In this document: positions 1-18,552 of the stretch, piece by piece
Numbering within the stretch: the first letter of the stretch is position 1
Layout: every line of letters begins with the position of its first letter
From: Thermoplasmatota archaeon
GTDB lineage: Archaea; Thermoplasmatota; Thermoplasmata; UBA10834
Direction: 5' to 3'
Assembly: GCA_016930135.1 (NCBI GenBank)
Contig: JAFGHM010000061.1
Coordinates: 1 to 32,357, forward strand
DNA length: 32,357 bases
Program-made: the position numbers and the translations under genes
Notes under the pieces: generated by a model
Databases searched by the model: none
The model's input: the letters and a program-made list of their open reading frames with translations, nothing else
Told to the model about the DNA's origin: nothing

Positions 1-27
1 ACCCGGGTTCAAATCCCGGCGGGAGCA
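1..27 (+). tRNA. 3' end of a tRNA gene (T arm and acceptor strand)
   Basis: Bases 3-7 pair with 15-19 to form a perfect five-pair T stem around the loop TTCAAAT. Bases 20-26 (CGGGAGC) are the 3' acceptor strand and base 27 (A) is the discriminator. CCA is not encoded. The rest of the tRNA lies upstream of the window, so the anticodon and identity cannot be read; the 5' acceptor strand should be GCTCCCG. This end is the integration target of the adjacent element. Confidence 0.85.
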
Positions 28-28
28 C
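7..28 (+). repeat. attL: 22-bp attachment repeat inside the tRNA 3' end
   Basis: The 22 bases from the T loop through the discriminator plus one base are identical to 18531-18552. Identity stops at base 6 on the left and at base 29 on the right. It is the tRNA-side attachment site. Confidence 0.88.
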
Positions 29-49: not shown

Positions 50-1216
50 TCAATTCGAGGGCACGACACACTTTGTCACGCTCTGCTGAGCCTGGGCCTC
101 CTTCCAGGCTCTCTGTATGTCGTCGCAGGCTGCCTTGTCCTTGATTCTGCCATAGAACTTCTCGGTCGTCGCGCTGTTACTGTGCCCCATTATCTTGCTC
201 ACGGAGGAGAGCTTCGCGCCCTTGTCGATGGACTGCTGACAGAACGTGGAGCGGAAGTCCTTCAGCTTGAACTGCACCATAGACTTCTCCTCGAGCAGGG
301 CTTTGACCTTGGCCCACTCCGCCTGTGTGTAGTACCTCGTGGTCCCTCTGCTCGTGCAGTAGGGCACCAGGGCTTCGTACTCGTTCACGCCGTGGGAGAC
401 AAGATACTCCTCGCGAGCACCGAGGAACTCCTCGATGGCGGGACGGATGTGCTCCAGTATGGGGACAGTCCTGTGCTTCCCGTACACGTTCTCCCCCTTC
501 GGACAGCTCACACGTATCTCGCTGTTGACGAAGTCGACATCCCCGAGCCTGAGCGTCCGCAGCTCAGACGGACGCAGTCCGGTTGAGGGATAGATGGAGA
601 CCATCAGCTTGCAGATGCTCCCGTTCCAGCCCCCAATATCGTATGCAGCCGACACGAGCGCGTCAAGGTCTCCGTTGCTGAGGCATACTATCTCGTCCTC
701 CACTTCGTTGGGGAAGTTGACGTGCCTGAGCTGCCTCATCTTCCCGATGATGGGGTTCCCGCACCAGACGAGGAAGTTGTCCAAGTACTGAAGATACTTC
801 TTCTGGGTCGACGGCTTCAACCTCAGCTCCTTCATCTTCTCGATGAACCTGCTAACCTCTGGTTCCCGTATCTTCCTCGGGGCGCAGGCGTATCCATCCG
901 GAAGGGATTCTTCCGGGTCCACGATAAGGGATATCCTGCGGAGTATCCTCTTCTCGTTGGCTAGGGTCGACTTCGCTCTGTATGGGGCGATAGCGTCGAA
1001 GTACTTGGGCAGAAGCGCGCGGAAGGGGTATCTTCCCATGTGCTTCACCCTAGGCTTCTTCCGCCTCCTCCCTTGGGCGCCCGAAGTCCTATGGCCGAAT
1101 CTGGAGGCGTCGATGCCGGAGACACGTCCATGCACCGAGCGTAGTTGTCCTCTCGGCGAAGGTGTCCTACGCCCAGTACCTGTATGGGCTGTCCTTAACG
1201 TAACCTTTTTGGACAT
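50..1216 (-). CDS. Tyrosine recombinase (integrase) of the element
   Basis: A 388-residue XerC/D-type site-specific recombinase that would integrate and excise the element at the tRNA. The C-terminal catalytic domain shows the first arginine in STGLRPSEL (R215), a lysine in GKHRTVP (K247), the DFRST box (R322, with D320 replacing the usual histidine), histidine in MGHSN (H345) and the nucleophile tyrosine in KFYGR (Y355). Residues about 60-160 form a SAM-like core-binding domain. The first 59 residues are basic and low in complexity, and M60 (codon at 1039) is a possible shorter start. The gene ends 22 nt from attL and reads toward the tRNA. A small excisionase was not found. Confidence 0.92.
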   Translation of the reverse strand: MSKKVTLRTAHTGTGRRTPSPRGQLRSVHGRVSGIDASRFGHRTSGAQGRRRKKPRVKHMGRYPFRALLPKYFDAIAPYRAKSTLANEKRILRRISLIVDPEESLPDGYACAPRKIREPEVSRFIEKMKELRLKPSTQKKYLQYLDNFLVWCGNPIIGKMRQLRHVNFPNEVEDEIVCLSNGDLDALVSAAYDIGGWNGSICKLMVSIYPSTGLRPSELRTLRLGDVDFVNSEIRVSCPKGENVYGKHRTVPILEHIRPAIEEFLGAREEYLVSHGVNEYEALVPYCTSRGTTRYYTQAEWAKVKALLEEKSMVQFKLKDFRSTFCQQSIDKGAKLSSVSKIMGHSNSATTEKFYGRIKDKAACDDIQRAWKEAQAQQSVTKCVVPSN

Positions 1217-1367: not shown

Positions 1368-1973
1368 TCATCGCCTAGAACCACCTCGTTTGGTAGCACC
1401 CGCAGACCTCAACCTCTTCCTTACGCCCTGATAACTCATGCCGACCCTCGACGCCACCTGCCTATGTGTCAGGCCCTCTGCCTTGAGCCTCACAATCTCC
1501 TCCGTGGATACGTCCATGGGCGGTCTGCCAAGCCTCTTCCCCTCAGACCGTGCCTTTCTGAGACCATCGATGGTCCGCTCCCGGATGAGTTCCCGTTCGA
1601 ACTCTGCAACGCTTCCAAGTATCTGGCGCATTAGCGTCCCAGATGGTCCCACGGTTGAGATTGGCTGGTCTACACACTCGAGCTTGACGCCCCGCCCATC
1701 CAGTTCCTTCATGATTGTCTCCAGGTTCAGCAGCGAGCGAGCTAGCCGGTCGACCTTCGTCACGAGGATGATGCCGAACCTCCTCGCTCGTGCGTCGGCA
1801 AGCATCCGCCCGAGGGCTGGGCGCTTTGAGTCTGCGCCGGATGCCTTGTCGACAAACTCACCGTAGACCTCCCATCCACGGTCAGCTGCATAGGCCCTGA
1901 GACGAATCAACTGGTTCTCAGGGTCCTGAGATTGGTCGTGTTTGGATATGCGAGCGTACATGGCGACCTTCAT
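1368..1973 (-). CDS. Small serine recombinase (resolvase/invertase family)
   Basis: A 201-residue resolvase. The N-terminus MKVAMYARISKHDQS carries the Y-R-S catalytic motif with the nucleophile serine at residue 10. The central block has the conserved KVDRLARS segment and the ILGSVAEFERELIRERT helix that leads into the DNA-binding tail. Residues about 150-195 are a helix-turn-helix (EEIVRLKAEGLTHRQVASRV). It could resolve element multimers or invert DNA. The start lies 6 nt after the stop of a short upstream frame and 155 nt from the ribbon-helix-helix gene, so it probably belongs to the same minus-strand operon. The reading frame stays open for 39 codons past its TGA (see findings). Confidence 0.9.
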   Translation of the reverse strand: MKVAMYARISKHDQSQDPENQLIRLRAYAADRGWEVYGEFVDKASGADSKRPALGRMLADARARRFGIILVTKVDRLARSLLNLETIMKELDGRGVKLECVDQPISTVGPSGTLMRQILGSVAEFERELIRERTIDGLRKARSEGKRLGRPPMDVSTEEIVRLKAEGLTHRQVASRVGMSYQGVRKRLRSAGATKRGGSRR

Positions 1974-2530: not shown

Positions 2531-3772
2531 TCACCGCCTTTTCTTCTTATGATACTCGTAAATTCTGGTTTTCTTTCCCTTCTTACCTAGGACTTGATAA
2601 GAAGTCACCTCGTGCGTCTCAGCAAGAGTCTCAAGCCCTTCGTCCACTTCAGAGGTCTTCATTCCAGCGTTACTGGCAGTATGAATCAGCACAGACCGAG
2701 TTGTCTTGCCCGCACGTTCTAGTATTCCTCTGAGCTTCTTGACGTTCTTCTCTCCACCGACCTGGTTGCTCAGCTTGATGGCATCAGCGATGTAGGGTTT
2801 GATGGCCTTCTCCGCCTTGCGAAACTGCTTGACATCTGCAGTCCAGGTGTCGCCCAAGAAGGTCATCCCGTTGTCGCTCACTGCCTGGATTATTATGAAC
2901 TCCGGTAAGATGTCCTCGACCAGGCGGGAGAGTATCACGGCTGTGGCGATGGACCCCCTCCTACCCCTGCAGTGGAAGTCCCTGCTCTTGGCGTCCCACA
3001 ATCGCTTAGCGGAGGCGCTCCAGAGCACCTCGGTCTCCTTGCCAAGGTAGGCATTGGACAACTTCTTCAACTCGCCCACGAGCCACTGCTCCTCGTTCAA
3101 CATCCATTGGGTGGGAACAACCTGTGCTGCCCATCGACCGTCACACACCCTGATAGCGAATCTAGGAATTAGGCCCGAGAGATAATTATCGACACTGAGC
3201 GCGTTCGTCAGGTCGTCCATCACAGACGCTGAGCACCAGGTCAGATGCATCGCTGGCACCACAATCTTCTTGTTAGCAAGGCGTTTTGTGAAGGAGTCGC
3301 CGTCCTTGAGGAGTATGACCGTCTGCTCCCAGCCAGCCATGAAATCCCGTTGGAAGGCCTTCGGGAGACGGCTGAACTCATCAGGCCAGAGCCACGCAGG
3401 GGCGTAATCGCCACAATGCATAGCAGATTGCGTCTTCATGTCGCCACACGCTGCAATCAACCCCTCTGGCGAAGAGGCATCGGCGAGCCGTTCGTCAGGA
3501 ATAACCTGGCCAAGAATCCTCTTCCCGAGCTTCAAAGCTGATGTCTTCTTCGTGGTGCTCGAGTTCCCCACAATCAGACACCAGAGGTTAGCATGGACTA
3601 TCCCTGAACCCAGACGCATGTAGACTCTCCGTCCTATGACCGCGGCCAGTATCGAGAGCGCGACAGACTGGTGGAACCCCTTCGGGGCCATCGGAGAGCA
3701 GGCCTTAGCCCATGCCACATAGCGCTCAATCCAGCCCACGGTCTCCGCCTTCCGTAACTGCATCTGGTTCAA
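2531..3772 (-). CDS. DUF3987-like P-loop ATPase, probable replication protein
   Basis: A 413-residue protein of the type found in plasmids and proviruses beside replication genes. After a helical N-terminus, HANLWCLIVGNSSTTKKTSA (ending near residue 79) places a Walker A-like loop (G69 to T77) after the hydrophobic strand typical of DUF3987 proteins. WLWPDEFSR gives Walker B (D131, E132). TWCSAS and SGLIPRFAIR supply a sensor-like strand and a candidate arginine finger (R204). The loop lacks the usual GKS/GKT and has KKTS instead. The C-terminal third is lysine-rich and may be a winged helix (about 345-405). It overlaps the upstream gene by 47 nt. A role as initiator or helicase is inferred. 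Confidence 0.72.
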   Translation of the reverse strand: MNQMQLRKAETVGWIERYVAWAKACSPMAPKGFHQSVALSILAAVIGRRVYMRLGSGIVHANLWCLIVGNSSTTKKTSALKLGKRILGQVIPDERLADASSPEGLIAACGDMKTQSAMHCGDYAPAWLWPDEFSRLPKAFQRDFMAGWEQTVILLKDGDSFTKRLANKKIVVPAMHLTWCSASVMDDLTNALSVDNYLSGLIPRFAIRVCDGRWAAQVVPTQWMLNEEQWLVGELKKLSNAYLGKETEVLWSASAKRLWDAKSRDFHCRGRRGSIATAVILSRLVEDILPEFIIIQAVSDNGMTFLGDTWTADVKQFRKAEKAIKPYIADAIKLSNQVGGEKNVKKLRGILERAGKTTRSVLIHTASNAGMKTSEVDEGLETLAETHEVTSYQVLGKKGKKTRIYEYHKKKRR

Positions 3773-4010
3773 TTATCGGCTCTCGCTTGATTCTCAGGCG
3801 CCCTGGATAGAGGAGTTTGTACACCAGCTTTAGCCCGTGCCGCCCGAGCACAGGTTCCATATCCGTCAGGCCAGCCTGTATGTCACGGACATCGCCTCGC
3901 AGAATGATGCCTAGACTGGCATCGCATGATAGACCATCTACATCCCCCTGGATTCCTCGTCCAGCCCGTTTTCTACTCCTACTTTCCGCTTCAGTTATGC
4001 TGGCGGTCAT
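3726..4010 (-). CDS. Hypothetical 94-residue protein, first gene of the replication operon
   Basis: The ATG at 4010 is preceded by a clear ribosome site (AGGAGG, spacing 5) and the 3' end overlaps the start of the ATPase gene by 47 nt. No family was recognised. The N-terminus is basic (ESRSRKRAGRG), with a mixed alpha/beta body ending RLRIKREPI. The good ribosome site and overlap argue that it is real. Alternatively this frame is just a long leader for the ATPase. Confidence 0.5.
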   Translation of the reverse strand: MTASITEAESRSRKRAGRGIQGDVDGLSCDASLGIILRGDVRDIQAGLTDMEPVLGRHGLKLVYKLLYPGRLRIKREPIIEPDAVTEGGDRGLD

Positions 4011-4071: not shown

Positions 4072-4641
4072 TGCCCTCATCCTCGCATATGCGACGCCGA
4101 TTTCTGCATCCAGCACTCAAGACCGGCTTCCGTCGTCCCGCTTCGTGTGTACCAAAAAAGGTCGAATTTCATTGCCGTGGCGTAGCATATGAGAATCCGC
4201 CTCCAAGAGCCAGATGGGGGCGAAACGTCCCTACCACTTTCATGAGAACGAGGCCCAGGAAGGGCAAAATGCTCGTGCGACGCAACAGGACCACTCGGAC
4301 CTTCGGTTCTGAGGCCTCTCGGGCTAGATGCATTCCGCCTCGGCGGCTGGCCGAGGGTTCTGTGTGAAGCTCTTGAACACGATTCGTGTGGGGACCCCCT
4401 TGGCCTCAAAAAGACGGCCGAACCCCACTGCAATGGTTCCGTTTCGATAGCATTATAACCCACTTCTCACAGATGAGGAACTGAGACGGCGCGTCGAGAC
4501 AGCATTCCAAGCCGTTGCCTCTACGGAAACGGCTGGCGCATTCTGGTGAGGAACATTGCCTCAGCAGGCGCCCTCACCCGCATGATGCCGTCTTGGGAAG
4601 CTACAGTATCGACACGCCGTGCTCACAATGGAGGTGAGTCT
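4072..4641. other. Gene-poor interval between divergent operons
   Basis: About 570 nt with no convincing gene. Open frames exist on both strands over 4071-4463, but they are arginine/proline-rich, lack ribosome sites and mirror each other. A TATA-like CATTATAAC (about 4449-4457) may start the thioredoxin operon with a leader of roughly 160 nt. The interval divides leftward replication genes from rightward cargo, which would suit an origin or control region, but I see no iterons in it. Confidence 0.4.
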
Positions 4642-4971
4642 GTGAAAACGATACGAACGAAGGAGGAATTTGAGACGGTATGGAGTGAAGCTGGAGCGCT
4701 GGTGGCCTACTTCGGCGCAACGTGGTGCTGGCCGTGCAGGCAGCTCGAGCCGCTCCTGAGGAAGCTTGAGAAGGAGAACACCGGCACCATCTTCGTAAAG
4801 GTGGACATCGACAAGAACGAGGAGCTGTCGGAGACTTTCAATGTCCTGTCCGTGCCGACCTTGCTCCTCGTCAGGAAGGGTAAGCTCCAGAGCAGGATGG
4901 TGGGCCTCCAGAGCTATGCGGCCCTGAGGAAGAAGGCGAAGGGGCTCCTGAAACCCTCAAGGAACGAATGA
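4642..4971 (+). CDS. Thioredoxin-like protein with WCWPC active site
   Basis: A 109-residue single thioredoxin fold. The redox motif WCWPC is at residues 28-32 after the strand ALVAYFGAT. The partner strand IFVKVDIDKN and the cis-proline segment VLSVPTLLLVRKG follow at the usual distances. It should exchange disulfides in the cytoplasm, as there is no signal peptide. The GTG at 4642 was chosen because the full Shine-Dalgarno GGAGGTGA ends 4 nt before it; the frame upstream is unlike a thioredoxin. The common motif is WCGPC; tryptophan in the third place would alter redox potential or partner choice (inference). It is the first gene of a four-gene operon with gaps of 13-17 nt. Confidence 0.9.
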   Translation: MKTIRTKEEFETVWSEAGALVAYFGATWCWPCRQLEPLLRKLEKENTGTIFVKVDIDKNEELSETFNVLSVPTLLLVRKGKLQSRMVGLQSYAALRKKAKGLLKPSRNE

Positions 4972-4984
4972 GGAGGCGGACAGC

Positions 4985-5479
4985 ATGGGCTGGGATTTGT
5001 ACGGCAGGAAGGAAGAGAGCTACTTCAGGGTGAACCTCTACGTATGGCCTCGACTGGGGCTCGCCCTCTACTTCCTGGGCGCCGACACAGAGAAGATGGC
5101 CACAGACAACAGCGGGAAGTACGTCCCCGCAGCGACTGCCAGAGCGTGGGCGGACGCGATTGAGGAGGGTATCGATAGCCTCGGCCTCGCCATCATCTCT
5201 GACTCTTCCTGCGAGGATGACGAGGGATGGTTCCTCATCCCGACGAGCTACGGCAGGAAGGAGGTCCGTCAGCTTCTCAAGGACTTCTACGGGGAGCCGC
5301 AACGGAGACGATTGGAGTCTACGGACGCTGAAGGGCGCTCTAGTATCTCGTACATCGAGCTTGAGGGGCATCGTTCGTACCGGGTGCTGAGAATTGAGCC
5401 TCTGTCGGAGGAGCTGAGAAAGTACCTCCTCGATTTCGCCAGCTTCTGCCGTCGGAGCGGCGGGTTCACTCAATGCTGA
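4985..5479 (+). CDS. Hypothetical 164-residue protein in the thioredoxin operon
   Basis: Not recognised. It starts at an ATG 13 nt after the thioredoxin stop, with GAGGAGG overlapping that stop. The protein is acidic and probably cytosolic, without membrane segments, and has two cysteines near the end (SFCRRSGGFTQC) plus one in SDSSCEDDEGW. The beginning (MGWDLYGRKEESYFRVNLYVW) suggests a small alpha/beta domain. Cysteines could make it a client of the neighbouring thioredoxin, which is speculation. Confidence 0.75.
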   Translation: MGWDLYGRKEESYFRVNLYVWPRLGLALYFLGADTEKMATDNSGKYVPAATARAWADAIEEGIDSLGLAIISDSSCEDDEGWFLIPTSYGRKEVRQLLKDFYGEPQRRRLESTDAEGRSSISYIELEGHRSYRVLRIEPLSEELRKYLLDFASFCRRSGGFTQC

Positions 5480-5492
5480 GGAGGGGGAGTCT

Positions 5493-5594
5493 ATGGGCAA
5501 CCAGAGAGAGCCAATCCTGTCGAGGTTCGCGAAGGGCCTCCTGCTTGGCGTAGTTCTGTACCTGCTGATACAGTCGTTCCTCGGATGGCCCTGA
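5493..5594 (+). CDS. 33-residue single-span membrane peptide
   Basis: The ATG at 5493 follows an AGGAGGGGGA ribosome site and opens 33 codons. A basic N-terminus (MGNQREPILSRFAKG) is followed by a hydrophobic helix (LLLGVVLYLLIQSFLG), so it should insert with its N-terminus in the cytoplasm. Its stop is TGATG, overlapping a possible start of the next frame, and it is evenly spaced within the operon. Function is unknown. Confidence 0.6.
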   Translation: MGNQREPILSRFAKGLLLGVVLYLLIQSFLGWP

Positions 5595-5611
5595 TGTGGG
5601 AGGTGATAGAG

Positions 5612-6397
5612 ATGTCAGGCAGAGTAGTCAAGAGGAATGCCGACAGACTGAGGAAGGGAGAGAAGTTCTTCGATTCCTGGACTCCTCAGTCGGCCTGGGC
5701 CTTGGGCGTCGTCTGCGAGAGGGCAGCAGTGGACTCCTCTCACGGAACTGTCGTTGAGGCCGCCGACACGCCTCTTCTCAGGGCCTTCTGTGGACTAGTG
5801 AAGGAAGCAAGGCTATGTCGGGACCGAAGGACGGTCGTCATTGAGTCACTTCATGTCGCAGAGAGATTGCTCGCCCTAGGAATGGAGGAGGGGGCCTTCA
5901 GCGTCCGGCGAGTCCCGTCCGTTCCGGAAGAGTACGTTCCCTATGTAATCCGAGGTATACTCGACACACAAGGAGTAATAGCTTCCTTCGGGCCGTATCT
6001 AGCCGAACTCTCCTTGGAGTTCCCGACCCGTCAGAAGGCGTGCCTGAGATTCATGCACAGGGAGCTTAAGAGAAGAGGGTATAGCGTCAGAGAGATGTCG
6101 AAGGAGATAGACTTCCTCGGCATCGCCCGTGAGGAGCCCGCGAGCTACAAGTGGACCCTTACGATGTCCAAGCCAGAGGACGTCATCGACTGCTACAAGT
6201 GGCTCTACCGCACGCCTATCGCAGGCCTGAGCTTCAACAGGGCTCAGAGATGGGTATGGTCTCAGCTACATTGGCTCCTGAGAGACCTCGAAGCGTGCTC
6301 TAGGATGCTTAAGGACAAGAAGATGCTCTCAGAGCTTCGGGAAGTCATAAGGGAAGGCAAGAGGGCGAAGCTCATGGGCGATTGGAAAGAACTGTGA
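5612..6397 (+). CDS. LAGLIDADG-type (homing endonuclease fold) protein, free-standing
   Basis: A 261-residue protein with two diverged LAGLIDADG helices. The first is SAWALGVVCERAAV (about residues 29-42), where the usual acidic residue is missing. The second is YVIRGILDTQGVIASF (about 113-128), which keeps an aspartate. The segment VPEEYVPYVIRG before the second helix and the strand AELSLEFPT after it match the family plan. The ATG at 5612 was chosen because GGAGGTGAT lies 5 nt upstream; upstream ATGs at 5585 and 5594 lack that. It is not inside an intron or intein, and with one motif damaged it may bind DNA without cutting. It ends the thioredoxin operon. Confidence 0.65.
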   Translation: MSGRVVKRNADRLRKGEKFFDSWTPQSAWALGVVCERAAVDSSHGTVVEAADTPLLRAFCGLVKEARLCRDRRTVVIESLHVAERLLALGMEEGAFSVRRVPSVPEEYVPYVIRGILDTQGVIASFGPYLAELSLEFPTRQKACLRFMHRELKRRGYSVREMSKEIDFLGIAREEPASYKWTLTMSKPEDVIDCYKWLYRTPIAGLSFNRAQRWVWSQLHWLLRDLEACSRMLKDKKMLSELREVIREGKRAKLMGDWKEL

Positions 6398-8414: not shown

Positions 8415-8765
8415 ATGCAAGGCTGCGAGGAACGGGACATGTCAGGTCGGAATGCCCGGAAAGAAAGGGCTCTCGGTCAAGTCACGCTACAGATTGTGCC
8501 CACGAGGCACTTTGAGAAAAGATTCCTCGAGCGAATCGGAGACTGGGTGCCGACCCCACGTCACGACAAGCCATTCTTCGAATCCGGCTTCCTAGTCAAG
8601 AGCTGGAAGCCGCACACCTACTACCTCGATGTCGAAGGCATAGGCAGGTACGTGTTGGCCGAGAACGGAACCGACGTGATAGGAATCACGGTGCTCCCGC
8701 TGCTCCACTGCCATTCTGATGTTGGCCCGCACCAAGCGCGCATGTTCTTCGTTTTAGGAGGATGA
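8415..8765 (+). CDS. Hypothetical 116-residue protein coupled to parB
   Basis: A small alpha/beta protein. Its body (TLQIVPTRHFEKRFLERIGDW, later YYLDVEGIGRYVLAENGTD and VIGITVLPL) weakly recalls small RelE/DUF4258-like folds, but I could not assign a family. The ATG at 8415 suits a leaderless start; a second ATG at 8439 is possible. Its TGA overlaps the parB start as ATGA (8762-8765), so translation of the two is coupled. It could be a regulator or toxin-like partner of the ParB unit, but nothing in the sequence proves this. Confidence 0.6.
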   Translation: MQGCEERDMSGRNARKERALGQVTLQIVPTRHFEKRFLERIGDWVPTPRHDKPFFESGFLVKSWKPHTYYLDVEGIGRYVLAENGTDVIGITVLPLLHCHSDVGPHQARMFFVLGG

Positions 8766-9781
8766 AATCAATGCCAAAGAACCTGCTACTACGCTTTGTA
8801 CCACTTGGGAAGCTAAGGAAGAACCCGTTCAATCCGCGAAGGACTTTCGACCCTTCTGGAGAAGACGCACTAAGACTCGAAGATATGGCCCAACATATCA
8901 AGAAAGATGGGATTCTGCTGCCTGTTGTCGTCCGCCCCTGGAATGGAGGATACCAGATGGCCGCCGGTGAGAGGAGGCGAATGGCTGCCGAATTGGCAGG
9001 CCTGAAGCAGATTCCTGCAGTCGTCAGGAGGATGGACGACGAAACAATGCGTCGCTATGCAGTCGTTGAGAACGTCCACAGACTTGACCTTACGGACCGC
9101 GAATTGGAGGACGCTATTGGTCGCATCTGGGAACAGGATTACGAGTCGAATGAGCAGTTATCGCAAATGGCTAGCGACCTCGGGATGAACCCAACAAGAC
9201 TCCGTCGGATTCTCATGGCCTACAAAGGACGAAGAGAGAAGCCCAGCGTGGCCAGGCCAGATTTGCCCACTCGTGATGCCGCGATGCTTACAGCACTTGC
9301 CAAGGAAGCCCCAAAAGAAGCGCGACAACTTGCTGAGGCGCGTGCAAAGGGTGCGCTTGAGTCTCGTGAGCTGGACGAGACTGTGGCGATTGTGAGAGCG
9401 GCTCCGAAGGAGCGAAGGCCCGACATTCTCGAACAGGTGAGGCGCGCAACAAAGGTGAAGGTGAAGGCTCGCCGTGAACTCGAACAGACGCTTAGAGAAT
9501 CTGACCGCTACGCAAGAGAGGGTCCGAAGCTAGAGTGGCGCAGGATGCTCAGCGCGGATGAGCGGCTCTTCAACCGCGTCGTTGAACTGCGTGCTGGAAT
9601 CGAGAAGTTCGACATGACCTATCTCGAACTCTTCCAGACCTTGGACCAGAGACTGAAGGCTGTGAAGATACTGGAAGCCGTCCGAGACAACATCGACCGC
9701 ACTCTTACTCTTGCCAGAAAGGCCGAGCCTAGATGGAGGAAGGAATGGACCGAACGTCGAGCAGAACTAGAAGAAGCATAG
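8762..9781 (+). CDS. parB: ParB/Spo0J-family partition protein
   Basis: A 339-residue ParB-like protein. The N-terminal CTP-binding domain has KNPFNPRRTF (box I), GERRRMAAELAG (residues 69-80, box II) and VVENVHRLDLTDRELEDAI (box III). A helix-turn-helix covers about 128-155 (SNEQLSQMASDLGMNPTRL). The C-terminal half is charged and helical with a likely dimerisation coiled coil. ParB proteins clamp DNA at a centromere and normally work with the ATPase ParA; no ParA or Walker-type partner is seen in the element. The start overlaps the preceding stop (ATGA), with GGAGG just upstream. A transcription-regulator role is the main alternative. Confidence 0.88.
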   Translation: MKSMPKNLLLRFVPLGKLRKNPFNPRRTFDPSGEDALRLEDMAQHIKKDGILLPVVVRPWNGGYQMAAGERRRMAAELAGLKQIPAVVRRMDDETMRRYAVVENVHRLDLTDRELEDAIGRIWEQDYESNEQLSQMASDLGMNPTRLRRILMAYKGRREKPSVARPDLPTRDAAMLTALAKEAPKEARQLAEARAKGALESRELDETVAIVRAAPKERRPDILEQVRRATKVKVKARRELEQTLRESDRYAREGPKLEWRRMLSADERLFNRVVELRAGIEKFDMTYLELFQTLDQRLKAVKILEAVRDNIDRTLTLARKAEPRWRKEWTERRAELEEA

Positions 9782-10581
9782 GTCAACAACCGCTTGACGC
9801 TGACGTCCAGTCCTTAAGAGGATGGTTGCGCCGTCGGGGTTGGCAGGGGCCGCGTGGCCCAGTCCAGCGGGCGCTACGAGACGCACTTAGACGATTCAAG
9901 GAAGCGGACAAGGACACCTTCACCCTACGCGAGCTGATGGCAGAGGCCGGCCTCGACTACGACAGCAAGTCCGACTACATCGCTGCCCTACAGTTCATGT
10001 CTCGAATGCGTGCTACTGTCACAGACTTCTCTACATGGTTCTGGATGCAGCCACAATACAAGAAGTGTGTTGATGACGGGCTCACTGACAAGAGGGTCTT
10101 CAAGAAGCTGGTAACAGTAATGACAAGCTACGAGATATTCCCTGTCTACTTCGATGCCAATTCAGATAGCTATCGGCTGTTGACTCTGGAGGGATGGGCG
10201 TATCTCGCTCGTAGAAGAGCGTTGGCAATGCGAAACGAGATTGTTCGACGCGTGGAGGAACTCAACATAATGCAGCGCGAATTTCCGATGCTCAGGGAAT
10301 TGTATCCGGCGCCAGCACTACCTACGGATGGCCAATTCATCCAGTTACCTGAGACTACAGGTGTCATATGCCAAGAATGCGGTGTGGCCTTCACGGACGA
10401 GAATTCTCTCAGCGTTCATATGAAACGCCGTCATCCTGAAGTCAAATCATCGCCTGACAAGTCTGACCCGCCGCCGGATTGTCCCTTGTGCAGAGTCCCC
10501 CTCAGTGAAATGGAAGCTGGAGACTACCAATGTCGCGAATGCAGACAGATATTCAGCAGGGATGAAATGAATGCCGAGTAA
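9745..10581 (+). CDS. Helical DNA-binding-like protein with C2H2 zinc finger and zinc ribbon
   Basis: A 278-residue protein. The N-terminal 150 residues are helical with a probable winged helix (DTFTLRELMAEAGLDYDS). Residues 209-230 are a classical C2H2 finger: CQEC, 12 residues, H, 4 residues, H (VHMKRRHP). A four-cysteine ribbon follows (CPLC and CREC, residues 246-266). The start overlaps the end of parB by 37 nt; the ATG at 9745 has GGAGG 5 nt before it. Third gene of the ParB operon, it could be the DNA adaptor or regulator of that unit, comparable in place, not in sequence, to the AspA adaptor of the archaeal pNOB8 system. Confidence 0.72.
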   Translation: MDRTSSRTRRSIGQQPLDADVQSLRGWLRRRGWQGPRGPVQRALRDALRRFKEADKDTFTLRELMAEAGLDYDSKSDYIAALQFMSRMRATVTDFSTWFWMQPQYKKCVDDGLTDKRVFKKLVTVMTSYEIFPVYFDANSDSYRLLTLEGWAYLARRRALAMRNEIVRRVEELNIMQREFPMLRELYPAPALPTDGQFIQLPETTGVICQECGVAFTDENSLSVHMKRRHPEVKSSPDKSDPPPDCPLCRVPLSEMEAGDYQCRECRQIFSRDEMNAE

Positions 10582-13936: not shown

Positions 13937-14362
13937 ATGGCAATGAGATGTTGGAACTGTGGCATAGTGACAAGAGTTGGTACGGAGCTGTGTGATGCTT
14001 GCGAACGTGGTTTTCTTGCCGAAGCCGCGAAGCACCAGTCTTATACACTCGGGGAAATCATGGCGGAAATCAAGAAGCATGATATTGAGATGCGCGCCAT
14101 GTACGAGAACAACAAGGACAGATTCGGACATGCCACATTGGCTACGGCGATACTCTCTGGGCTAGTACTGGCCATTACGGGAATCGCAGGTGTAGCGACA
14201 ACCATTGAGGACTGGACGAAGCTAGGGGAATGGTTGACCTTTCAGTCAGCTTGGATTCTTGTTTGCGGCGGTGCAGCGATTCCCTTTGTGGTGGAAATGT
14301 ACTGGCTCTGGGCGCGGTGGAAACAGACCAAGACGGTAGCAGAGGGGCGTTGCATACCTTAG
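13937..14362 (+). CDS. Zinc-ribbon membrane protein (141 residues)
   Basis: The N-terminus has CWNCG and CDACERG, a four-cysteine zinc ribbon (residues about 5-25). A charged helical stretch (EIMAEIKKHDIEMRAMYENN) and two membrane helices follow (ATLATAILSGLVLAITGIAG; SAWILVCGGAAIPFVVEMYW). AGGAG precedes the ATG. The ribbon and the C-terminus should both face the cytoplasm. This zinc-sensor-plus-membrane layout occurs in many archaeal small proteins without known role. Confidence 0.65.
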   Translation: MAMRCWNCGIVTRVGTELCDACERGFLAEAAKHQSYTLGEIMAEIKKHDIEMRAMYENNKDRFGHATLATAILSGLVLAITGIAGVATTIEDWTKLGEWLTFQSAWILVCGGAAIPFVVEMYWLWARWKQTKTVAEGRCIP

Positions 14363-14402
14363 GACACATGATGGGTAAGCCCGAGACGGAGTTCCCTAGC
14401 AT

Positions 14403-14431
14403 AACATCCATAGGGGTGAAAGGGCGATTCA
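14403..14431 (+). promoter_or_regulatory. Conserved upstream element, copy 3
   Basis: AACATCCATAGGG, then GTGAAAGGGCGATTC, 34 nt before the ATG at 14437. About 23 of the 28 bases match the element at 13369. Confidence 0.55.
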
Positions 14432-14436
14432 TACTC

Positions 14437-14760
14437 ATGGCGCGACAACGAGGAAAGGGAAAGCCCCTCGAGGAGCCATGTGCCATATGTGGCGAGATGC
14501 GATGGACTGATGTCGCTCATTTCCCTAGAAGGAAGCGAGACGGTGCACGAGATGAGGGGACTGTCTTCCTGTGCCCGACCCATCACAAGCTGCTGGACTC
14601 AGGGCGAATCTCAAGAAAGGAGTTCGAGGTTCTGATGAACAGCGAGAAGTTCCGAGGGAATTCTTCGTCAGTTGAGGAGTTCGTCGAGTGGGCGCACGAA
14701 GAGGGGTATCCATACGCACTCTCAGACCTCAGGGACAAGTTCTGGGATTACAAGGGATAG
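14437..14760 (+). CDS. HNH-type nuclease-like protein (107 residues)
   Basis: The sequence CAICGEMRWTDVAHF followed about 22 residues later by LCPTHHKLLDSGRIS fits a compact HNH fold: a CxxC pair, the DVAH active-site histidine and a CxxHH zinc/metal knuckle. The C-terminal half is acidic and helical (VEEFVEWAHEEGYPYALSDL). The frame is open from 14230, but that part runs over the previous gene; the ATG at 14437 fits the conserved upstream element. It differs from the HNH frame at 11128. Nuclease activity is inferred from the motif only. Confidence 0.65.
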   Translation: MARQRGKGKPLEEPCAICGEMRWTDVAHFPRRKRDGARDEGTVFLCPTHHKLLDSGRISRKEFEVLMNSEKFRGNSSSVEEFVEWAHEEGYPYALSDLRDKFWDYKG

Positions 14761-14995: not shown

Positions 14996-17900
14996 TTAAC
15001 CAGGCTTCCTGCGCATATCTCTGCGGAGCCTGCTCCTCGCGACTATAGCGACGAGGAACATCAGCGCTAAAACTGGAACTATCACTGTCGAGAACTCCGG
15101 TATGACTTCCCAGACCTCGACATTCATCTCCGTGATGTTGTTCAAGCCTTGCGTGTCACGGACCTCGAGTCGAACGGTGTAATTGCCAGGAACTGAGTAT
15201 TGGTGATGGGCAACCTTCTCGGTGCTCCAGTCGGTGTCCCAGTTGCCGTCACCGTCGAAATCCCAGCGAACCTGCAGCACCTCAGCGAAATCCTCGAAGT
15301 CCACAGATGCACCAGAATCAAACATGAAGAATACATCCAGACTCCCGACGGGAGGCGATGCAGACATATGAGCCACTGGGGCAAGATTCGGCAGTTCGTT
15401 GATTCCGCTTGGAAGGCTGGCAGACCCAACTGCTTCAGAACCAGAGACCACCGTCAGCTCAATCGCTGGGTCTGAGGTGTTGCCAAGGTCATCCCAATCT
15501 ACGACGTCGAACTCGTATGAAAAACCTTCTTTCAACAGCAGGCCATTTGCACAGAAGGTTGTGTTCACATCCAGTCCACTCGATAGTATCATCAAGTCAA
15601 GCTGAACGCTCTCTTCAGAGACGTCCAGGCTGAATCCATTCTGCGTTGGCGATACCAGATAGGAGTAGTTGCCTTCGCTTGTCATGTTCAACCCATATCC
15701 ATGTCCCACCGGCGTCCCGCTCTCGTTTGTGGACCATAGAATCATGAGTGCGGATTCTCCTGAGCACGGAGGGTCGACAGTGAAATTCACAGTCCTAGGA
15801 ATAGCGTAGACTTGCATATCGTTCTCATCAATACCTCGACTGCCCGGAATCCCCATCACAAACTCCTTCGTGGTGCTGTCGAAGTAGCTCTCTTCTTGTG
15901 TCAGTGTATCCACAACAACTGCATTCTTCTGCGAGGCTACAAGGTAGTAACCTGCCGAGGTCATGTTAATCCAGCCCCTGTCCCATTCCCATGGCCAAGC
16001 GTTCCAGAAGAACCAAGACTTCTCGATTGCTGATGGTGTTTTTACCTTGATGGATGAATAGGCGTAGAGATGATTGGTGTAGTGGAGAGTCTTGGACGTT
16101 GTGTTGTATTGAGCATACCTAACTTCGTTGGGATAGTTGGGGTCTGAAACATTGATATAAACATTGCCATCGGACCCGTAAGTCAGACCCCACCCAACGA
16201 CTGCATGCATCCTGCTAAGGTCCAACATGTCTGGCAAGTCAGGATACAAGGCCAGTATCAATGGCGAACCATTTGAGATTGAACTGGTGATTGCGTCAAA
16301 TTCCTCGGATGCATTCAGACCTACCCAGTCAAATCCTACAGTGTGCCCAGGCTCCCACAACTGGTGAACCATTATCGCAAGAGTTGCATTCGTCAATTCG
16401 CTGTAGCCTCTCGATGATTTCTTCAGTTCGTGGGTGAATTGAGCGCGAGGCGTTTCGTCGGGAATAACTGGATATGAAGCATTTCCCAGCCAATATCTCT
16501 CAAAATATGCAACAGCGGTGCTAGACATTCCATAACAATTGCCCCCCGGCTGCCAATCCGTCCCTCTGTTCTCGAAATCATAGGTATCCCGGTCCACTCT
16601 CCATCCAGTAGGCATGTATTCTGACGGGGGCGGAACAGACAGAACCTCTACAGCTGCTCCCTTGAGGACACCCCAGGAAGGGTAGTACCCGCTCTTTGTT
16701 GCCAATGCTTCGAGCCGGTCCAATTGGTTGACGAATACATATGGAGCGTGATAGGTTGTCTCGAAAACCCCATCGAATCCGGTTAGGCCCTTTTCTGGCT
16801 CTAAGGAACCATTGACGGCGCTTATCACGATTCCTGCATTGTAGACACTGCCTACTCCGTCTGTGACATGGACTTCAACCCTAGTACTGCCTCCAGCTTT
16901 CACACTTCCTTCTTCAATCTCGAACGAAACGTACAGAGTCTTCACGACAATGTCCTCGGAGACTCCTCCTGTAAGACCACCGCTATCCTTGACCTCCAGA
17001 CTCACAGTGTATTTCCCAGCACTTTGATAGGTATGCTGAGCAGTCTTCGTTGTCGACCAATCCGTGTCCCAGATTCCGTCCGTCTCCCAATCCCACCGGA
17101 CTTCAAGCACATCTGAAGAATCTTCCGCGTCATGCGACCAATCACCGTCTACCGAGATTGTCAAGACGTCGATAGTGGAATACATCCATAGGAACGATGC
17201 AACAGGCGGCGTATTGGTGCTGGGGTATGGTTCCATCAGCGGATAGTTGTCCTGGCTGTCCGCATCGATGACATAGGGCGTGTCACCGATGCCGTCTCCA
17301 TTACTGTCTGTTCCCCCGTAGTCGGACCAGTAGTTGCCACCGCTAGGATACCCATCATCCCATAGGTTCACGGTCCCTTGGTCGTCCCTAGCCTGCCAGC
17401 CATAGTACAGATTCCCAATGAGGTTGTTGTGATACACCACCGCTCCACTTGTCAACACAAGACCGATTCCAGCTCCATTGCCAGTAATCTCGTTCTCCTG
17501 AATCTTGAGGTCCGCACAGCCATAGGAGAACATCCCATAGCCATTGCAGTCTGACACATCATTCGAAACAATACTGATATGCTGAGAAGACCAAGAATAG
17601 ATTCCATACTGGCCTATATACGAGACCCTTGCGTTCTGGATTGTGACCGTATCCACCATCATGAGGCCGATTCCGACATCCGTGCCTGATATCTGGACAT
17701 CTGCTATCCTGACGTTGCTGCAGTCCACGATTAGCAGTTGACCAACCTGAATTGAGGCGACCTCAAGACTGTCCTTTTGGGCGTAGAAGTAAACAGGCTT
17801 GCCGTTCACAGTGTTGTCTGATGAAATAGTGTGTGAGACGAAATACTGCAGTTCGGTTGACCCTCCCGCCCAAATGAAAACACCGTTCGATGTGAATGTG

Positions 17901-18406
17901 TTTCCCGTGACTACACAACTGGTGGAACTCCCCAACCATAGCCCATGCATGTGATTGTCATGAATGCTGTTTCGGACAGCACTGCAGAAGGACGATGAGC
18001 TGAATGTGATACCATAGGAGAAACCGAAAACTTCGATAGAATCCACGGTGCCGTGTGTGACTCCAGAAAAACGGACACCATAGTCAGGAACAAAGGATGT
18101 GCCATCAAGGTAGACGTTTCGAATAATGAAGTAGGATGTGGTTCCTTCTATTGTTATGGCATTGTCAGAATGGACACTAGCTGCAATTGACCAACCCTCG
18201 ATAATGTAAGGGTCCGACAGCGTTCCGCTACCACCAGTGACACCGTTTGCTGCTGTGAATCCAGAATCTCCGTTGACCACAATCGGACTATGTGCGGTAT
18301 ATGCCGAGGCTCTCTCAGGCACGACCGATATAAGCATAGCGAATGACGTTGCACTCATCAGGAATACTAGAACGACAGCTGCCACTTTCCTCCTCGAAGG
18401 CATCAT
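14996..18406 (-). CDS. Secreted, C-terminally anchored NosD/PKD protein with papain-like peptidase domain
   Basis: A 1136-residue surface protein. Order: signal peptide (1-36, AAVVLVFLMSATSFAMLI); NosD-like right-handed beta-helix (about 40-395) ending with the family mark GGNYWSDYGGTDSNGDGIGD; PKD domain (about 400-485); Ig-like domain (about 490-590); a C39/papain-like unit with cysteine in GGNCYGMSST (near 621), histidine in MHAVVGWGL (near 734) and aspartate in NVSDPNYP (near 753); a second PKD domain (about 1010-1095); and a tail IPEFSTVIVPVLALMFLV plus RSRLRR. That tail resembles the PEF-type archaeosortase signal. It probably works outside the cell on proteins or in adhesion. It is the last gene before attR, so it travels with the element. 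Confidence 0.82.
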   Translation of the reverse strand: MMPSRRKVAAVVLVFLMSATSFAMLISVVPERASAYTAHSPIVVNGDSGFTAANGVTGGSGTLSDPYIIEGWSIAASVHSDNAITIEGTTSYFIIRNVYLDGTSFVPDYGVRFSGVTHGTVDSIEVFGFSYGITFSSSSFCSAVRNSIHDNHMHGLWLGSSTSCVVTGNTFTSNGVFIWAGGSTELQYFVSHTISSDNTVNGKPVYFYAQKDSLEVASIQVGQLLIVDCSNVRIADVQISGTDVGIGLMMVDTVTIQNARVSYIGQYGIYSWSSQHISIVSNDVSDCNGYGMFSYGCADLKIQENEITGNGAGIGLVLTSGAVVYHNNLIGNLYYGWQARDDQGTVNLWDDGYPSGGNYWSDYGGTDSNGDGIGDTPYVIDADSQDNYPLMEPYPSTNTPPVASFLWMYSTIDVLTISVDGDWSHDAEDSSDVLEVRWDWETDGIWDTDWSTTKTAQHTYQSAGKYTVSLEVKDSGGLTGGVSEDIVVKTLYVSFEIEEGSVKAGGSTRVEVHVTDGVGSVYNAGIVISAVNGSLEPEKGLTGFDGVFETTYHAPYVFVNQLDRLEALATKSGYYPSWGVLKGAAVEVLSVPPPSEYMPTGWRVDRDTYDFENRGTDWQPGGNCYGMSSTAVAYFERYWLGNASYPVIPDETPRAQFTHELKKSSRGYSELTNATLAIMVHQLWEPGHTVGFDWVGLNASEEFDAITSSISNGSPLILALYPDLPDMLDLSRMHAVVGWGLTYGSDGNVYINVSDPNYPNEVRYAQYNTTSKTLHYTNHLYAYSSIKVKTPSAIEKSWFFWNAWPWEWDRGWINMTSAGYYLVASQKNAVVVDTLTQEESYFDSTTKEFVMGIPGSRGIDENDMQVYAIPRTVNFTVDPPCSGESALMILWSTNESGTPVGHGYGLNMTSEGNYSYLVSPTQNGFSLDVSEESVQLDLMILSSGLDVNTTFCANGLLLKEGFSYEFDVVDWDDLGNTSDPAIELTVVSGSEAVGSASLPSGINELPNLAPVAHMSASPPVGSLDVFFMFDSGASVDFEDFAEVLQVRWDFDGDGNWDTDWSTEKVAHHQYSVPGNYTVRLEVRDTQGLNNITEMNVEVWEVIPEFSTVIVPVLALMFLVAIVARSRLRRDMRRKPG

Positions 18407-18530: not shown

Positions 18531-18552
18531 GTTCAAATCCCGGCGGGAGCAC
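18531..18552 (+). repeat. attR: 22-bp copy of the tRNA 3' end
   Basis: Identical to 7-28. The bases before it (CCGGA) cannot complete the T stem, so this is not a functional tRNA but the distal attachment site of the element. Confidence 0.88.

Follow-up and report, generated by a model that had tools for sequence, protein, structure and literature searches.

To our knowledge, a LAGLIDADG enzyme has rarely been seen to persist after losing its catalysis. The bacterial transcription factor WhiA (DUF199) carries a LAGLIDADG part without catalysis and binds DNA mainly through an added helix-turn-helix domain (PMC3781837). In the PhoVMA intein of Pyrococcus horikoshii, the active-site aspartates are absent from both LAGLIDADG helices and the nuclease domain is reported to be inactive (PMC8966425). 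Here we analysed contig JAFGHM010000061.1 of a Thermoplasmatota archaeon (lineage UBA10834) over its whole length of 32,357 nucleotides (nt), in the following called the window; it belongs to a draft genome of 1.83 Mb that is 85% complete. The window contains a four-gene operon that begins with a thioredoxin gene and ends with the gene of a LAGLIDADG protein in which both catalytic acids are replaced. It is best read as an accessory operon that is conserved among tRNA-integrating elements of one Thermoplasmata family.

The operon-encoded LAGLIDADG protein resembles WhiA in keeping a degenerate, presumably non-catalytic LAGLIDADG part in a protein with a presumably new role. Unlike WhiA, it shows no recognisable helix-turn-helix and belongs to a thioredoxin operon on an archaeal mobile element. 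Like PhoVMA, it has an archaeal LAGLIDADG domain whose two helices both lack the active-site residues; the PhoVMA domain, however, is part of an intein and its state is interpreted as decay in the report on it, whereas the operon protein comes from an independent, conserved gene. LAGLIDADG endonucleases (inteins of Thermoplasmata, the endonuclease of Brevibacillus phage SecTim467, PHROG 4645) have the same two motifs in register, but here R and Q occupy the catalytic places and the gene is free-standing within a fixed operon. The leading protein has the complete domain of the thioredoxin family (PF00085) with WCxPC, although WCWPC and WCEPC replace WCGPC in two of three operon copies. No operon combining a thioredoxin with a LAGLIDADG protein or homing endonuclease was found in a search of the full-text literature, whose reach excluded most subscription papers.

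Layout and recurrence of the operon

Translation confirmed the gene order thioredoxin, 164-residue protein, 33-residue membrane peptide and LAGLIDADG protein. Successive genes are 13, 13 and 17 nt apart, and all four starts have a GGAGG-type ribosome site upstream. The genes, their order, their close spacing and their strong ribosome sites thus stand as the initial annotation had given them. An alternative in-frame ATG of the LAGLIDADG gene at position 5585 overlaps the peptide gene and gives a 270-residue frame; residues of this protein are numbered in that frame.

Two further copies of the operon were found on contigs C33 and C1 of a single second genome (G013, labelled Thermoplasmata; the window genome is G000). 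The C1 locus has the order thioredoxin (WCGPC), 164-residue protein, membrane peptide and LAGLIDADG gene, and the C33 locus has thioredoxin (WCEPC), membrane peptide and LAGLIDADG gene. Three of the four genes therefore occur in constant order in all three loci, and the gene of the 164-residue protein in two, behind a common leader. This bears out the proposed fixed association of a redox protein with a homing-type protein. A scattering of the genes in related elements, the sign of chance grouping named in the initial annotation, was not what the neighbourhood search returned: chance grouping was rejected because the operon recurs in 3/3 loci while the adjoining replication genes are unrelated; between the three loci, the primase-like proteins that flank the operon have no meaningful similarity by blastp. 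Beyond the operon, one or other locus shares the serine recombinase, the integrases, a 94-residue protein and 66 residues of a further gene.

The unit is rare, with three loci so far. The LAGLIDADG protein was present in 2 of the 21 genomes of the order. Of 400 genomes sampled from the class, these 21 among them, 2 encode it, and of 389 sampled from the phylum, 1 does, namely the window's own; in a collection of genome contigs it appeared only in records of G013. Viral contigs gave no further copies, whether searched with the LAGLIDADG protein or the 164-residue protein singly or with alignments of both. In phage records the window proteins had no match at E ≤ 1; the C33 LAGLIDADG copy at E ≤ 10 retrieved 5 records, and the best three, annotated as endonuclease or intein-containing (E 3), are not significant. 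Plasmids yielded two chance matches to the 164-residue protein, and the sequences of the Protein Data Bank (PDB) no match.

Lost catalytic acids and selection in the LAGLIDADG protein

None of the three homologues matched a Pfam LAGLIDADG family, and all three matched phrog_4645 ('endonuclease', best E 3.3e-6), the window copy alone at E 0.027 only. Applied to 300 genomes of the class, the phrog_4645 model matched 37, partly at PF14528 (LAGLIDADG_3) intein sites; it recovered the C33 copy (7.8e-5) and missed the window copy. A profile of the operon protein scored at best 2.3 bits against single intein frames, which is too weak, and profile-profile comparison was used instead. Against a set of seven LAGLIDADG sequences, hhalign returned 95.1% (score 59.6), compared with 2.8% (score 23.2) for the best of 100 column shuffles; single members gave 84% (window copy), 92% and 96%.

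In this alignment two motifs about 83 residues apart are in register with those of known LAGLIDADG endonucleases. Motif 1 reads LGVVCERA or LGVIYERG where the set has LGFIYADG, and motif 2 reads RGILDTQG where the set has RGYFDGDG. The catalytic-acid positions, for which we take the letter presumed to bind metal, hold R46 (motif 1) and Q129 (motif 2), identical in 3/3 copies and with an acidic residue in neither. A legend on Blocks C and E in the PhoVMA report agrees with this choice of letter (PMC8966425). The family call in the initial annotation thus holds, but its view that only the first motif is damaged was rejected, since Q129 replaces the catalytic acid of motif 2 as well. An active nuclease with an altered active site, in which for instance E45 (motif 1) or D127 (motif 2) would substitute, is very improbable: both residues are invariant in the three copies, but D127 is the sixth letter of its motif and the metal-acid places correspond to Q129 and R46 by the alignment, with the metal letter as assumed above.

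Pairwise dN/dS values (counting method, Jukes-Cantor) were 0.20, 0.20 and 0.24 for the LAGLIDADG gene, from pairs with dS of 0.68–1.27. Synonymous divergence across the operon genes ranges from 0.5 to 1.5 and is therefore partly saturated. The gene is free-standing within the operon and has its own ribosome site (no intron search was made). That it is a decaying homing endonuclease gene, a functionless passenger of a thioredoxin operon, is more improbable still. Homing genes are reported usually to accumulate inactivating mutations (PMC13405050), and the loss of both catalytic acids would fit; the low dN/dS, the identical replacements in all copies, the own ribosome site and the fixed place speak against it. 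Moreover, the frames are open in all copies, with no frameshifted copy among the three, and from base composition alone 260 codons would stay free of stops with a probability of 5e-5, a figure that is not a model of decay.

Taken together, the alignments indicate that both catalytic acids were lost before the three copies diverged and that the protein has been kept since; its maintenance, as opposed to decay, is well supported. Because both cutting residues are gone yet selection keeps the protein intact, it probably binds DNA or RNA now. The two full-length copies are basic (pI 9.2 and 8.9) and have C153, C203 and C238 in common. No Pfam family of WhiA or helix-turn-helix proteins scored above cut-off in the protein (LexA_DNA_bind, 13.9 bits against 23.7).

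Conserved leader and candidate regulation

The three loci can be aligned across the entire leader 5' of the thioredoxin gene. Its distal part looks like a promoter region, with an A+T-rich stretch followed by a block common to all three. Closer to the gene lies a dyad or hairpin, GGTGAGG-20 nt-CCTCACC in the window and GGCGAGA-20 nt-TCTCGCC in C33, with perfect 7-bp arms in both; the predicted hairpin has a 5/5 internal loop and an inner stem, and two of its ten pairs are changed on both sides (compensated). In this part of the leader C33 and C1 share 30 identical nt, a run reached in 1/20000 column shuffles. When a covariance model of 53 positions was run on the 21 genomes, each of the three operons was recovered at no worse than 2e-17 and no other match exceeded 24.4 bits, as would be expected of an operon-specific site. 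The calibration of the model is rough: besides the operon loci it gives 4 matches at E ≤ 0.006, somewhat more than 21 genomes should yield.

A wider regulon was considered and rejected: copies of the leader motif with 3 mismatches in G005 and G012, and the next model match (24 bits, G005), sit in unrelated places, and no thioredoxin gene follows 3' of those other leader-like sites that were inspected (some frames judged by eye). We therefore treat them as chance occurrences.

Tentatively, we favour a reading in which the non-cutting LAGLIDADG protein binds nucleic acid and autoregulates the accessory operon at the leader dyad. Expression of the whole operon would start from a single promoter-like block, with a structured leader behind it, and would yield a thioredoxin, usually a small viral-family protein, a membrane peptide with one helix and a LAGLIDADG protein of two domains. 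This last protein, presumably unable to cut DNA by the known mechanism, would retain nucleic-acid binding and repress its own operon through the 34-nt dyad or hairpin, a homing enzyme turned autorepressor. The thioredoxin and the membrane peptide would be the effectors that the element gives its host. The suggestion in the initial annotation that the protein may have become a regulator is compatible with the loss of both acids under purifying selection and the conserved upstream dyad; a regulatory role is what we infer from these features, and that interpretation as a whole is partly supported.

Several observations weigh against autoregulation. The sample is limited to three loci, in two draft genomes from a single archaeal family, and in C1 the LAGLIDADG gene runs off the end of the contig. 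The C1 dyad retains four inner Watson-Crick pairs and one G-U pair, with 2/7 outer-stem pairs broken. Identical leader runs of the window are 9 nt with C33 (reached in 1587/20000 shuffles) and 15 nt with C1 (115/20000), so the window copy adds little to the evidence for leader conservation. WhiA is a weak precedent for binding by the LAGLIDADG part, because it uses a helix-turn-helix and none was found here. Structure prediction, which the initial annotation had suggested, gave no usable structure: the AlphaFold model built from three sequences reached a mean pLDDT of only 40 and a pTM of 0.33. Finally, the leader could be an RNA element bound by no operon protein.

The last point has a fuller form, in which the leader acts alone, as a structured RNA or through an upstream short frame that controls thioredoxin translation, while the LAGLIDADG protein does something else. 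The internal loop and inner stem of the hairpin fit such a role, and in C1 a 34-codon ATG frame spans the leader block and overlaps the thioredoxin start; the window and C33, read likewise by eye, give partly similar peptides. The start of the frame is not conserved across the loci, however (GTG, none, ATG), and has no visible ribosome site, the window frame is in frame with the thioredoxin, and 30 identical nt without synonymous change exceed coding needs. We regard this explanation as improbable.

It is also unlikely, if less so, that nucleic-acid binding by the LAGLIDADG protein serves the element in some other way and has nothing to do with the dyad. The protein might then guide the integrase or the serine recombinase, mark an origin or help RNA to fold, as a maturase does. 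LAGLIDADG maturases exist, and in 3/3 loci the operon occupies the integrase/primase side of its integrative element, a position that agrees with the earlier label 'cargo'. The replication proteins adjoining the operon are nevertheless unrelated between loci while the operon itself is related, and searches with the leader motif gave no additional copy in the vicinity of the recombination genes.

Partner proteins and the integrated element

The window thioredoxin scored 71 bits against PF00085 (cut-off 23.5), with a full domain and CxxC, and stayed under the cut-off of the NCBIfam thioredoxin equivalog. Directly before WCxPC it departs from the usual sequence with AYF, where the two homologues have VDF. 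Pairwise dN/dS across the three loci was 0.31, 0.20 and 0.32. A second, diverged thioredoxin (WCYPC) of the window genome lies on the 4-kb contig G000:C77 (L120 3573-3920, - strand) among element-like small genes; it scored 92.6 bits against the profile of the operon thioredoxins, which the order's remaining thioredoxins matched at no more than about 65 bits. The LAGLIDADG gene is absent from that contig, so the thioredoxin is independent of it in some places. A switch in which the thiol state of a non-cutting LAGLIDADG regulator on the dyad would be set by the co-encoded thioredoxin is a doubtful elaboration of autoregulation, with a low probability in our estimate.

The 164-residue protein was confirmed as a cysteine-containing protein, but its cysteines are mostly unconserved: of C76, C155 and C164, only C155 is shared with the C1 homologue (58% identical, dN/dS 0.20; the C33 locus has no copy). 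A role as cysteine-rich redox partner was rejected on the ground of this single conserved cysteine. No match was found in protein-family libraries (Pfam, PHROG and NCBIfam among them), and an AlphaFold model (pLDDT 72) returned nothing by Foldseek at E ≤ 0.001 in the PDB or BFVD. A viral family that we took to be marked by YFRNNVWWWRP and a C-terminal SGGF served as the pattern for a scan of viral contigs, which gave at least 80 loci with YFRNNVWWWRP...SGGF (L135-L214); 'YFRNNVWWWRP family' is a name coined in this analysis. Two members tested had no PHROG match and no Pfam match above cut-off. When 75 of these at least 80 viral proteins were aligned against the 164-residue pair, hhalign gave 94.3%, with 18.6% for the best of 100 column shuffles; as single sequences, the window protein reached 96% and the second homologue just 53%. 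The strong alignment covers 55 N-terminal columns, the C-terminal motif is also aligned by HMMER, and hmmsearch gave 16.0 and 10.5 bits. The 164-residue protein has the YFR-N motif, the N-D/S-G segment and the C-terminal FxxFCxxSGGF of the family, whereas the viral WWWRP reads YVWPR. From two sequences and 55 strong columns, we consider it a probable distant member.

The membrane peptide has one predicted helix and conserved LSRFxKG and GxxxG. A search of the 400 genomes of the class gave three matches at E ≤ 2.3e-21, all within these operons, followed by one at 1.1e-4 inside a longer frame. Its dN/dS values were 0.35, 0.54 and 0.49, from 30 to 41 codons only. A conserved GxxxG in a small one-helix peptide would also suit an immunity or exclusion module, in which incoming DNA would be sensed by the LAGLIDADG protein and the peptide (with the thioredoxin) would alter the envelope or arrest growth. 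The probable viral kinship of the 164-residue protein points the same way, as does a complete type I restriction-modification set (hsdM, hsdS, hsdR; L006 12121-17881) that starts 385 nt 3' of the C33 LAGLIDADG gene. PADLOC, however, had no match for the three larger operon proteins or for four further proteins of the window element, the primase-like protein gave only a weak match (E 0.006), and no toxin-like feature was recognised; this module is quite unlikely.

The window copy of the operon lies in an 18.5-kb tRNA-integrated element, with an integrase beside the tRNA end and a direct repeat at the far end (Table 1). Repeats of this length were expected 0 times in 100 shuffles. The contig start falls inside the left tRNA, which is not seen whole; a 23-mer around the repeat occurs with up to 2 mismatches in 19/19 family genomes, and lies at tRNA-Ser or tRNA-Glu genes in the 4 loci checked. 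The C33 integrase starts 60 nt from tRNA-Leu(cag), and the operon lies beyond that integrase, among partial tRNA ends; the right end of this element was not found, and the contig showed no second copy of the tRNA-Leu end. The C1 contig has its integrase at 5085-6287 and ends in the LAGLIDADG gene.

Table 1 Features of the integrated element in the window, in order of position
Feature	Position	Strand	Basis
Left copy of 22-bp direct repeat, tRNA 3' end (T-arm and acceptor)	7..28	+	Exact repeat with 18531-18552
Tyrosine integrase adjoining tRNA end	50..1216	-	PF00589 5.8e-19; phrog_1 1.1e-27
Serine recombinase	1368..1973	-	PF00239 2.5e-43; 56% identical relative in C33 locus
Primase/helicase-like replication protein (DUF3987-like), divergent from operon	2531..3772	-	phrog_10514 2.8e-10
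94-residue protein	3726..4010	-	51% identical relative at same place in C1 locus
Promoter-like block: A+T-rich stretch (ATTATAA), then CTTCTCACA	4446..4474	+	Alignment, common to three loci
34-nt dyad or hairpin	4545..4578	+	Leader alignment, pairing
Thioredoxin, WCWPC, 109 residues	4642..4971	+	GTG start; PF00085 9.6e-20; homologues in 3/3 loci
164-residue protein, probable distant relative of viral YFRNNVWWWRP...SGGF family	4985..5479	+	hhalign 94.3%
33-residue membrane peptide, conserved LSRFxKG and GxxxG	5493..5594	+	Homologue directly 5' of LAGLIDADG gene in 3/3 loci
LAGLIDADG protein, both catalytic acids replaced (R46, Q129)	5612..6397	+	261 residues from ATG 5612; PHROG, hhalign
Right repeat copy, without 5' side of T-stem; right end of element	18531..18552	+	Exact repeat

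Further genes were noted in and around these elements. The window element encodes a ParB-like protein (8762-9781; PF02195, 1.2e-23), followed by a gene whose product has motifs resembling zinc fingers (9733-10581), and a protein at 14230-14760 that scored 20.4 bits, far under the cut-off, against a model of a phosphorothioate-DNA-binding restriction endonuclease. A secreted-looking protein of 1136 residues (14996-18406) lies inside the bounds of the tRNA-end repeat; a relative with about 40% identity was found some 10 kb from the C1-locus integrase (L007 16042-19659). The C33 region contains partial tRNA 3' ends of two kinds (L006 4560-4640, 19243-19265) and two integrases on the same side, and looks like an array of integrated elements.

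In summary, an apparently dead, free-standing LAGLIDADG protein is kept in mobile elements of this family together with a conserved leader and fixed partners, and an uncharacterised, common viral protein family is linked to a defined operon through a probable member. If the thiol switch applied, the element would sense the redox state of its host and time the release of its membrane effector. For the Thermoplasmata, the operon may offer a compact, testable archaeal case of an endonuclease turned regulator.

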